A stretch of 64,000 nt of DNA from Pseudotabrizicola sp. (GTDB lineage Bacteria; Pseudomonadota; Alphaproteobacteria; Rhodobacterales; Rhodobacteraceae): NCBI RefSeq assembly GCF_030684215.1, contig NZ_JAUXOV010000074.1, positions 62,001 to 126,000 of the forward strand, given 5' to 3'. Made by a program: the position numbers and the translations under genes. Numbering within the stretch: the stretch's first letter is position 1; the number at the start of each line of letters is the position of its first letter. Of this stretch, positions 49,374-62,265 are shown piece by piece. The notes below the pieces were generated by a model. That model was given only the letters and a program-made list of their open reading frames with translations. It made no database searches and was not told the DNA's origin.

Positions 49374-49629
49374 CGCTGTTTTCCTTTTGCCTGTCTGAGC
49401 AGCACAGTTGCGATCTTTGCACGAAACCTCAAGGTTTGCTTGACCAAACGCTCAAATTTTACGCGAAGGCGCTGTAATTAATGACGATTTCGTGACAAGA
49501 AGCCATGCCGTCGCTGCATGGCAGCATTGCGCAAGAAGGCTATTGTGCAGTTGCAGCATTTGCCCCATGTTATCCCTAACAACGCGGCAGAACGCTGCAA
49601 CCGACCCAAAATCGAGAGGCTAGAGTGCT

Positions 49630-49845
49630 ATGGCTTATGTAAACTCATCACGTGCTGCATCCTACGGCATTGTTGACCGGGCCGCTGCCATCGTGAAATC
49701 CATTCGCGTTGGTCTGGAGCGTCGCCGGGTGTTCAAACAAACCGTCCGCGAATTGCAGGCGCTGTCGAACCGCGAGCTGGCTGATCTGGGCATTCACCGC
49801 ACCATGATCACCCGCGTAGCCAACGAGGCTGCTTACGGCAAGTGA
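49630..49845 (+). CDS. DUF1127 protein, CcaF1-like
   Basis: The 71-residue basic protein carries the DUF1127 core FKQTVRELQALSNRELADLGIHRTMI (quoted in part: RELQALSNRELADLGI). In Rhodobacter sphaeroides the small DUF1127 protein CcaF1 is co-transcribed with the downstream CcsR sRNAs, binds RNA and affects their maturation. The same order is seen here, with the first CCTCCTCCC hairpin 12 bp after the stop. Expression there depends on heat-shock sigma factors RpoHI/RpoHII. The 256-bp gap upstream (49374-49629) must hold the promoter, but I could not assign boxes with confidence. Confidence 0.92.
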   Translation: MAYVNSSRAASYGIVDRAAAIVKSIRVGLERRRVFKQTVRELQALSNRELADLGIHRTMITRVANEAAYGK

Positions 49846-49856
49846 ATTTCTTTGCG

Positions 49857-49927
49857 AGGCCCCTATCCTCCTCCCAGGGGTCTGTAGCAAAAGCGTCGGC
49901 ATCAATCCTCCTCCCTGATGCCGACGC
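49857..49927 (+). ncRNA. CcsR-like unit 1
   Basis: Hairpin A has an 8-bp stem (49857-49864 with 49876-49883) and the loop motif at 49867. Hairpin B has a perfect 12-bp stem (49893-49904 with 49916-49927) and the motif at 49907. The first copy ends CCCAG, unlike the other nine, which end CCCTG. Confidence 0.88.
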
Positions 49928-49960
49928 CCTTTAAAACGGAGCGAACGCTCCTACCTGATA

Positions 49961-50033
49961 CGAGAAGCCCTCTCCTCCTCCCTGGGCTTGTCGGAACAGC
50001 GGCACCCTCTCTCCTCCTCCCTGAGGGTGCCGC
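49961..50033 (+). ncRNA. CcsR-like unit 2
   Basis: Hairpin A is AAGCCC / GGGCTT, extended by CGA / TCG across a mismatch, with the motif at 49974. Hairpin B has an 11-bp perfect stem (49999-50009 with 50023-50033) and the motif at 50013. Confidence 0.88.
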
Positions 50034-50085
50034 GGATCATTTGAGGGCCAGAGTTTTCTGGAATTGACCCTCACCATAGTTCGAA

Positions 50086-50152
50086 CGGCTCTTCCTCCTC
50101 CCTGAGCCGGTCGGAATCGCGGCGGCCCCTTCCTCCTCCCTGGGGTCGCCGC
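50086..50152 (+). ncRNA. CcsR-like unit 3
   Basis: Hairpin A is CGGCTC (50086-50091) with GAGCCG (50104-50109) and the motif at 50094. Hairpin B has an 11-bp stem with one G-U pair (50119-50129 with 50142-50152) and the motif at 50132. Confidence 0.88.
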
Positions 50153-50188
50153 ACCCGAAATACGGGGGCTTGTCCCCCACCCTGTTCG

Positions 50189-50266
50189 GTCCTGCCCCCT
50201 CCTCCTCCCTGGGGTTGGACTGAAAAGTGGAACTCTGACCCCGTCCTCCTCCCTGGGGTTTGGGTT
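50189..50266 (+). ncRNA. CcsR-like unit 4
   Basis: Hairpin A pairs 50189-50198 with 50211-50220 (one mismatch, one G-U) and has the motif at 50201. Hairpin B pairs ACCCC with GGGGT and extends through an imperfect outer stem; the motif is at 50245. Both stems are less regular than in the other units. Confidence 0.82.
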
Positions 50267-50276
50267 CCCTGATACG

Positions 50277-50360
50277 CCGGCCCCCTCCTCCTCCCTGGGG
50301 TTGGTTGTGAATGATGCGGCGGCGCCCCTCCTCCTCCCTGGGCGCCGCCGTTTTCATTTT
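50277..50360 (+). ncRNA. CcsR-like unit 5 with terminator
   Basis: Hairpin A is CCGGCCCC with GGGGTTGG and has the motif at 50287. Hairpin B is an 11-bp perfect GC stem (50317-50327 with 50340-50350) and has the motif at 50330. It is followed by TTTTCATTTT, so this hairpin doubles as the array terminator. Confidence 0.88.
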
Positions 50361-50416
50361 CGGGGGTTGCGGTCGCGGCGGGTGCCGCGCATCGTCGCCC
50401 CAAGAATGAGGACAGC

Positions 50417-51562
50417 ATGCGTATTTCCCTGATATCGGCGGCTATTGTGGCGGCATTTGTTGGCTATGGGTCCACCATTGCGCTGGTGCTGGCAGCCGCG
50501 GCAGCAGTGGGGGCCGACGCGGGCCAGACCGCGAGCTGGGTGCTGGCGGTATCGCTGGCCAAGGCAGTTGGCTCGGGCTGGCTGTCGGTATGGAACCGGG
50601 TGCCGGTGGTGCTGGCGTGGTCTACACCGGGGGCGGCGCTGATTGCAGCCACAACAGGCGTGACGATGCCGCAAGCCGTCGGAGCCTTTGTTATGGCGGG
50701 CGCGCTGATTGCGCTGACGGCAGCGGTGCGCCCATTGGGGCGGTTGGTTGCATCTATCCCCGACGGCGTTGCAGCGGCAATGCTGGCCGGGGTTTTGCTG
50801 CCATTTTGTCTGAAAGGTGCAGGAGCGGCCGAGGCGGCACCGGGGCTGGTTTTGCCAATGGTGGCGGTGTTCGCGCTGGTCCGGCTATGGAACCCGGCCT
50901 TGGCCGTACTGGCGGCTTTGGCAATGGGGGTGGCGCTGGCCTTTGTGACCGGTGCGGCGATCCTGACGGATGTGCCGTTTCCCGCCCCTGTGCCGGTGTT
51001 CATCTGGCCGGAATGGAATCTGGGGGTGCTGATCGGGCTGGGGGTGCCGCTGTATCTGGTGACGATGGCCAGCCAGAATCTTCCCGGCTTTGCCGTCATG
51101 CGCGCGGCCGGGTATGAGCCGCCGGTCACACGGGCACTGGCGGTGACCGGAGGAATTTCGGCGGCCTCAGCCCTGTTTGGCGCGCATACGGTGAACATGG
51201 CGGCGATCACAGCAGCGATCTGCATGGGCGATGACGTTCATCCCGACCGCGATCAGCGCTGGAAGGTAGGCGTGGTCTATGCGGGCGTCTGGGTGGCTTT
51301 GGGCCTGTGTTCCCCGGCGATCATGATCCTGCTGAGCGCTTTGCCACCGCAGGTGATGGGCGCGCTGGTGGCATTGGCGCTGCTGGGGCCGCTGATGGGG
51401 GCGCTGGCGGGCGCATATGCAGTGGTCGACACACGGTTTGCGGCCACGATCACGCTGGCCGTTGCAGCGTCGGGCGTGGTGGTGTTCGGGATAGGCGCGG
51501 CATTCTGGGGGCTGATTGCAGGGCTGGTGATTTTCGGGCTGGAGCGGTTGAAGCGCGGCTGA
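50417..51562 (+). CDS. benE: Benzoate/H+ symporter family protein BenE
   Basis: The 381-residue protein has about twelve hydrophobic segments and BenE family motifs: WSTPGAALIAATTG, SIPDGVAAAMLAGVLLPF, YLVTMASQNLPGFAVMRAAGY and ALFGAHTVNMAAITAAICMG. The family imports benzoate or related aromatics with protons. No benzoate catabolic genes are nearby, so the substrate is uncertain. It starts 57 bp after the end of the CcsR-like array terminator; read-through into it is possible. Confidence 0.9.
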   Translation: MRISLISAAIVAAFVGYGSTIALVLAAAAAVGADAGQTASWVLAVSLAKAVGSGWLSVWNRVPVVLAWSTPGAALIAATTGVTMPQAVGAFVMAGALIALTAAVRPLGRLVASIPDGVAAAMLAGVLLPFCLKGAGAAEAAPGLVLPMVAVFALVRLWNPALAVLAALAMGVALAFVTGAAILTDVPFPAPVPVFIWPEWNLGVLIGLGVPLYLVTMASQNLPGFAVMRAAGYEPPVTRALAVTGGISAASALFGAHTVNMAAITAAICMGDDVHPDRDQRWKVGVVYAGVWVALGLCSPAIMILLSALPPQVMGALVALALLGPLMGALAGAYAVVDTRFAATITLAVAASGVVVFGIGAAFWGLIAGLVIFGLERLKRG

Positions 51563-61730: not shown

Positions 61731-61863
61731 GGCGCACCTTTTGACTTTCCCCCCCTTTGGCATGGCTGCCGCGCAATTCCAAGAGGTCCGCGACCCGACG
61801 TCATGCTTGCAAGAGCGGGAGCGGATTGCGGATGATCTGCGAACCTTCAGGGAGGAGGACCGC

Positions 61864-62265
61864 ATGAACAGATTCGTATCCCGCGTGGCACTGGCTGCCG
61901 CCGTAGTTTTTACCGCTTCCGCTGCGTTTGCCGATCCGGCTGTCGGGCTTTGGAAAACCAAGCCCGATGACAATGGCAACTTTGGCCATGTGCAGGTGCA
62001 AGCCTGTGGTGCAGCCGTCTGTGGAACGCTGGTCAAGGCGTTCGATGGCACAGGCAAAGAGATCGCTTCGCCCAATGTTGGCAAGCGGATCATCTGGGAC
62101 ATGAAATCAAAGGGCGGCGGCGCCTATGCCGATGGCAAGGTCTGGTCGCCGGATCGCAACAAGACCTATAACTCCAAGATGGTCTTGCAGGGCAACGGAT
62201 TGGCGATCTCTGGCTGTGTGCTGGGCATCTGCCGTGATGGCGGCACCTGGACCCGAATCAATTAA
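61864..62265 (+). CDS. DUF2147 secreted protein
   Basis: The 133-residue protein has an N-terminal signal peptide (basic start, hydrophobic core [17 protein letters not shown]-like, cleavage near AFA/DPA). The DUF2147 core follows: [53 protein letters not shown], ending GTWTRIN. The periplasmic function is unknown. It is divergent from hisA and lies inside the histidine locus. GGAGG lies upstream of the ATG. Confidence 0.9.

Follow-up and report, generated by a model that had tools for sequence, protein, structure and literature searches.

What does a row of ten hairpins, all carrying the same loop, do behind a small DUF1127 gene, and on which RNAs could such loops act? We addressed this question in a 64-kb window (the whole stretch of DNA that was analyzed, 64,000 nucleotides), whose features are collected in Table 1.

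The DUF1127 gene and its hairpin array

The window contains 11 exact copies of CCTCCTCCC, for which shuffled sequences gave an expectation of 0.52 and a largest count of 3, and ten of these copies lie at 49867-50338 on the forward strand. Genome-wide there are 23 exact copies, of which 11 belong to this array and a second DUF1127 locus. The initial annotation had placed each of the ten copies in a hairpin loop, and folding agreed with this in all ten cases: the motif is looped out in 11-13 nt on a stem of 8-14 pairs. It had also described every stem as unlike all others and the array as five twin units. No two of the ten stems are identical, but a common GCGGC start shows the second hairpins of units 2, 3 and 5 to be related. 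The twin arrangement holds for three clear pairs, whereas the 3' half consists of four hairpins at even intervals (successive spacings 40/67/39/81/38/69/44/42/43). Tandem Repeats Finder reported these last four as a 42-nt tandem repeat of 3.5 copies at 76%.

Table 1. Positions of the features discussed in the text, numbered within the window.
Feature	Position	Strand	Basis or remark
Inverted repeat GCCATGC-N7-GCATGGC, 21 bp	49502..49522		Upstream of promoter; possible operator
RpoH-like promoter TTGTGC-N14-CCCCATGT	49543..49570	+	Position from sequence
DUF1127 gene, 71 aa, CcaF1-like	49630..49845	+	ORF; PF06568, 2.9e-12
Hairpin 1 (unit 1)	49851..49891	+	Inner stem 49857-49864 with 49876-49883; extra outer stem TTTGC (49851-49855) with GCAAA (49887-49891)
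Hairpin 2 (unit 1)	49893..49927	+	12 pairs; RF02791 match spans hairpins 1 and 2
Hairpin 3 (unit 2)	49961..49993	+	Unit 2: RF02791 51.4 bits, below gathering
Hairpin 4 (unit 2)	49999..50033	+	Folding
Hairpin 5 (unit 3)	50080..50115	+	Unit 3: RF02791 51.5 bits, below gathering
Hairpin 6 (unit 3)	50119..50152	+	Folding
Hairpin 7, first of four at even spacing	50185..50224	+	No RF02791 match at E<=0.001
Hairpin 8	50229..50268	+	Folding; tandem repeat
Hairpin 9	50276..50305	+	Hairpins 9 and 10: RF02791 43.3 bits, below gathering
Hairpin 10 with T-rich tail	50316..50360	+	Putative Rho-independent terminator, motif in loop
GGGAGGAGG, full nine-letter loop complement	61850..61858	+	5 nt before ATG of DUF2147 gene (61864-62262); candidate target

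Covariance analysis gave a clear family assignment. The Rfam model RF02791 (CcsR1) matched unit 1 (49847-49932) with 77.2 bits, above its gathering score of 65.3, and this covariance search, which the initial annotation had proposed as a check, bears out the CcsR identity suggested there. Units 2, 3 and 5 matched at E<=0.001 with 43-52 bits, below gathering, and unit 4 gave no match at that threshold. A search of the whole genome returned these same four units and the second DUF1127 locus, which lies on another contig. Among 16 genomes of the genus (own included), 15 contain RF02791 matches. The nearest named records of the DUF1127 protein, at 93-97% identity, come from Pseudotabrizicola algicola, formosa, sediminis and alkalilacus and from Pseudorhodobacter sp. 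MZDSW-24AT, a comparison from which records of the own genome were possibly left out. The stop codon of the gene lies 21 nt 5' of the first CCTCCTCCC motif on the same strand. In addition, the order of DUF1127 gene, hairpins and terminator had been likened to that in R. sphaeroides, and both the PF06568 gene and a terminator-like last hairpin were indeed found. The locus is thus securely assigned to the ccaF1-CcsR (cuckoo/CIN1) type, in a Pseudotabrizicola-like Rhodobacteraceae genome. Two further observations were made: a BenE-like transporter gene (PF03594, 50417-51562) lies downstream of the array on the same strand, and weak DUF1127 relatives occur on nine contigs of a viral collection (L207-L215).

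At the 3' end, the tenth hairpin is followed by TTTTCATTTT as read from the sequence, and this T-run makes the hairpin the likely Rho-independent terminator of the array. A terminator scan of the region that admitted only loops of 3-8 did not flag it. A T-run within 8 nt of the last hairpin is found in 62 of 77 related loci.

We also compared 19 upstream regions (the window, the second locus, 13 congeners and 4 Cereibacter or Luteovulum; one congener with a misplaced start was left out). By eye, ATTGTGCA and CAT[GC]TT are present in all 19, and we take the promoter of Table 1 and these conserved elements to be RpoH-like; a scan of 49400-50450 found no sigma-70-like site. The inverted repeat upstream has exact arms in 16 of the 19 regions by eye, Cereibacter included; one exception has a single mismatch, one is cut by the 150-nt frame and in one, the second locus, the repeat is absent. 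It is possibly an operator; the terminator scan reported it as resembling a terminator on the minus strand. The ccaF1 gene of R. sphaeroides is preceded by a promoter for RpoHI/RpoHII (PMC10253847), and CcsR1-4 are among the RNAs under RpoHI/RpoHII control (PMC8307010). The second DUF1127 locus (L005:1238-1600; G000:C32 near 69090), whose promoter region matches that of the first, carries a hairpin with the exact CCTCCTCCC motif and another that resembles a terminator and has TCCTCCCC as its loop.

Array size and conservation of stems and loops

The array had been regarded as expanded, and the comparison of unit number across Rhodobacteraceae gave no sign of this. Since the twin-motif pattern itself selects for the motif, loci were also sampled by DUF1127 similarity: 80 named loci were picked solely in this way, and 77 of them were not cut by an end. 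In these 77, hairpins per locus ranged from 1 to 17, with ten as both the median and the commonest number (23 loci), followed by 8 (20 loci); 39 loci had at least ten, and the array stood behind the DUF1127 gene in nearly all. When up to two loop mismatches were allowed, seven of 14 genus relatives had more than ten hairpins, five had ten and two had nine; with exact motifs only, the figures were six, three and five with fewer. These hairpin counts required at most two mismatches in the loop and a minimum stem score, and as two filters were in use, a locus may come out one hairpin higher or lower, as with L100 at 10 and its twin record L135 at 9. At the level of whole genomes, a motif pair 22-52 nt apart occurs in 218 of 295 family genomes. 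The window's genome has 6 such pairs, and 48 of the 294 others have at least 6 in one orientation, with a maximum of 25; these 48 were counted by hand and may sum matches from several places in a genome, as they do in G039. On these comparisons, an unusual expansion was rejected.

The array of Cereibacter johrii, presumably close to R. sphaeroides, has 8 hairpins, which fits the four units CcsR1-4, and its RF02791 score is 106.2 bits. At the other extreme, the array L101 (G165:C1:333900-337600, reversed) holds 26 exact CCTCCTCCC copies; this is a count of exact motifs, and the hairpin count used for the genus, with its gap rule, cut L101 to 3. It consists largely of a 140-nt unit in 6.5 copies at 97%, apparently a case of recent tandem growth. 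Taken with the 42-nt repeat of the window, this suggests that the arrays grow by tandem duplication, and ten hairpins are ordinary: 8-12 are common among relatives, and one array has 26 exact copies. As L101, the array L191 and the second locus L005 all lack an Rfam match above gathering, the Rfam model is narrow.

Such growth by duplication, as in the 140-nt unit of L101, is what a neutral tandem repeat without function would also display. The stems, however, are conserved in a manner that makes this reading barely credible. In an alignment of unit 1 from 15 genus sequences (three helices, 23 pairs), 98.0% of helix cells were paired, compared with 33-51% when the 3' partners were slid by 1-3 columns, and six of the 23 pairs had changed on both sides, which was reached in none of 500 shuffles. 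RNAalifold recovered 22 of the 23 pairs from the same alignment. In these 15 sequences, further pair types were no more numerous than in shuffles, 444 of 500 of which reached the same number, and compensatory change was absent from the outer helix of hairpin 1. A family-wide alignment of 37 loci visibly misaligned the stems of distant members, and its pairs were left out of the counts.

An arm-swap control agreed with these results. Within the window's array, the true partner was strictly best for eight of the ten hairpins and tied best for the other two. For 415 filtered hairpins of 41 arrays, own arms scored 25.1 on average, a figure that the filter favors; swapping in arms from other arrays gave 12.4, and arms from other hairpins within the same array gave 12.9. 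The neutral repeat was thus rejected on the compensatory stem changes and the arm-swap control, and the place behind DUF1127, fixed in nearly all of the 77 loci, also speaks against it. The selection on RNA stems that the initial annotation had advanced is upheld, and the absence of compensatory change, which it had named as grounds for giving up the idea, does not apply. The array fits the cuckoo type, with several anti-Shine-Dalgarno-loop hairpins on variable stems that are kept by compensatory change.

The loops are conserved letter by letter: they were exact in 399 of 417, and 685 exact motifs were counted within 1000 nt behind the gene in the 80 DUF1127 loci. Variants that keep TCCTCCC and change the two preceding 5' letters amount to 51 hairpin loops in 26 of the 80 loci, with 25 of the 51 in five loci, whereas those that keep CCTCCTC with a changed 3' end amount to 5 loops in 5 loci. 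Variation thus lies mostly at the 5' end, and the constant part, UCCUCCC, is the complement of GGGAGGA. The arrays L191, L194 and L195, from two uncultured Roseicyclus and from Jannaschia rubra, have for the most part shorter loops built around TCCTCCC in place of CCTCCTCCC. If the hairpins had a role in cis only, protecting the 3' end and terminating the DUF1127 mRNA, as the terminator-like last hairpin might suggest, then a single hairpin would suffice and the loop letters would be expected to change freely, yet they are nearly invariant; we regard a purely cis role as quite improbable. As a separate observation, GGAGG was absent within 22 nt before the DUF1127 start in all 67 genes counted, as if the mRNA avoids its own loops; this count has no background for comparison, and 13 of the 80 loci were left out of it, their match not beginning at residue 1 or their start being unsure.

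A candidate target class

Which mRNAs could these loops meet? GGGAGGA located 4-9 nt before an ATG occurs at 86 sites in the genome, and the reversed pattern at 9. Retrieval of all GGGAGGA sites except the array's own antisense site left 81 distinct ORFs with a length of 60 aa or more. At least 34 of the 81 encode solute-binding proteins of ABC, TRAP or TTT transporters (10 Peripla_BP_4, 9 SBP_bac_1/8, 8 DctP, 4 TctC, 2 SBP_bac_5 and 1 NMT1_3); this is a minimum, given that 40 candidates, picked for their N-termini, were scanned singly, and the four TctC proteins include two that are apparently near-duplicates (L342, L363). Behind AAGGAGA or AAAGGAG, no solute-binding protein was found among 65 ORFs, which included two permease domains. 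For this control, 59 loci and 40 stretches were fetched from 94 and 60 sites, and 65 distinct ORFs were kept; it is based on the 25 commonest of 118 families, ten proteins scanned singly and a reading of N-termini, so that none found does not amount to proof of none. A second control, AAGGAGG, gave 2 in 36 ORFs kept from 50 sites. Fisher's test returned p = 4e-11 for the GGGAGGA set against the 65 ORFs and 6e-5 against the 36. Because the controls behind other strong sites lack the bias, GGGAGGA itself, rather than the strength of a site, marks solute-binding proteins in this genome, and the rule that leads from a UCCUCCC loop to a GGGAGGA site picks out their genes.

This bias bears on two other readings of the loops. 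They may act as a general damper of translation that mimics the anti-Shine-Dalgarno end of 16S rRNA and touches many mRNAs without preference for a class. The 16S tail shares CCUCCU with the loop and is without its CCC end, which the loop retains. The duplex energy favored the loop over this tail at 79 of 81 GGGAGGA sites, whereas in the two control sets it did so at only 14 of 65 and at 9 of 36, a comparison that is partly circular because the sites were picked by sequence. With the matching sites biased to one class as well, we consider a general damper unlikely. The second reading, a protein sponge of the CsrB kind, supposes that the repeated loops titrate a protein, for example the DUF1127 protein itself, and that base pairing is secondary. 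Many identical and nearly invariant loops on different stems would suit it, as would the RNA-binding CcaF1 of R. sphaeroides, which shares a transcript with CcsR and influences how CcsR matures (PMC10253847). However, the invariant part is an exact Shine-Dalgarno complement whose matching sites show a strong preference for one class of genes, and NfeR1 loops act via pairing (PMC10746234), and a sponge therefore appears rather unlikely to us.

The class bias is not confined to genomes with the exact twin pattern. In G101, a family member that lacks it, the 22 ORFs kept behind GGGAGGA include up to 6 that encode solute-binding proteins (30 of 75 sites were fetched, and 6 is a sum of family tallies), a share above that of the 65 controls (p = 1.5e-4) and not significantly below that of the present genome (p = 0.23). 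As G101 shows the bias without exact twin loops, this array may not be the cause of it; the bias may be an older habit served by several anti-Shine-Dalgarno RNAs, or G101 may have variant loops, given that the search was for the exact twin pattern and variant or single loops may exist there.

Among individual genes, the DUF2147 gene of Table 1 has GGGAGGA before it in 11 of the 12 genus loci whose start could be placed (counted by eye and with the own locus; 4 further loci were not placeable). The full nine-letter complement also occurs before a PrpE-like acyl-CoA synthetase gene, where, by eye and with the own locus among the 15 compared, 8 retain GGGAGGAGG and 13 retain GGAGGAGG, and 4 nt before the GTG of a 203-residue ORF. 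Our literature search, which lacked most subscription journals, found no paper on solute-binding proteins as CcsR targets, and a search for anti-Shine-Dalgarno hairpin sRNAs in Rhodobacter gave none. PMC8625941 names C1 metabolism and pyruvate dehydrogenase, and not solute-binding proteins, as CcsR targets.

Proposed mechanism and comparison with known systems

We propose, as the explanation that is best and fairly probable, that this is a CcsR locus whose processed loops repress mainly solute-binding-protein mRNAs under stress. Transcription from the conserved RpoH-like promoter would yield one RNA that comprises the DUF1127 message and, as its 3' UTR, the ten hairpins; RNase E and the DUF1127 protein would process this transcript into short sRNAs as in R. 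sphaeroides. The exposed CCUCCUCCC loops, chiefly their UCCUCCC part, would then pair with GGGAGGA Shine-Dalgarno sites and block the 30S subunit, so that mainly the mRNAs of ABC, TRAP and TTT solute-binding proteins would be repressed. From the loop conservation and the class bias of the matching sites, we infer that uptake would decrease under stress. The loops, being identical, would be redundant, and extra copies would add dose and not specificity. Stress-induced trans-silencing of nutrient-uptake mRNAs is thus the likely mechanism, as judged from sequence; we infer the step from the array to solute-binding-protein mRNAs, to which the titration of mRNA leaders supposed in the initial annotation would be narrowed. 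If the rule is causal, CcsR-type RNAs would cut nutrient uptake under stress, as proposed for related rhizobial RNAs. More tentatively, CcsR arrays in general might be trans-silencers of a dedicated solute-binding-protein regulon whose GGGAGGA sites pair better with the loops than with the ribosome, the DUF1127 mRNA being without such a site and dose evolving by tandem amplification of hairpins, up to 26 per array.

The CsrB and CsrC RNAs each repeat a single loop motif many times on stems that differ. The array resembles them in this, but the motif and the partner are different, so that this is an analogy only. A closer likeness is to NfeR1/alpha-r14 and SmelA075/SmelA099 of rhizobia, whose variable stems likewise carry CCUCCUCCC loops; for S. 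meliloti, RNAs of three and of four such hairpins have been described (PMC3927594). NfeR1, with three such loops acting as redundant anti-Shine-Dalgarno loops, represses ntrB and two ABC-transporter mRNAs, and its predicted targets are mostly ABC transport mRNAs (PMC10746234, PMC7143759). However, NfeR1 is a stand-alone RNA with its own sigma-70 promoter and three hairpins, whereas here ten lie in the 3' UTR of a DUF1127 gene. Therefore, we do not assign the array to NfeR1/alpha-r14, although its loop may work alike.

The cuckoo family, including CIN1, shares with this locus a conserved loop, variable stems and a short adjoining DUF1127 gene (PMC10253847, PMC4504443), but its motif is described with 2-4 hairpins (PMC4504443), as opposed to ten in one 3' UTR here. 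DUF1127 proteins can also act through protein contacts, via PhoR (PMC12501420). The closest counterpart is ccaF1-CcsR1-4 of Rhodobacter (Cereibacter) sphaeroides, where the CcsR RNAs derive from the 3' UTR of ccaF1 (PMC8625941) and are matured by RNase E and CcaF1 (PMC10253847). Both loci have a DUF1127 gene, CCUCCUCCC hairpins in its 3' UTR, an end terminator, an RF02791 match above gathering and, here as a putative element read from the sequence, an RpoH-like promoter. They differ in the number of hairpins, ten here against eight in four units there (PMC10253847), and in the even spacing of the last four in the present array. Taken by itself, the locus is an ordinary ortholog of an sRNA locus already known; the new element is a candidate class of targets.
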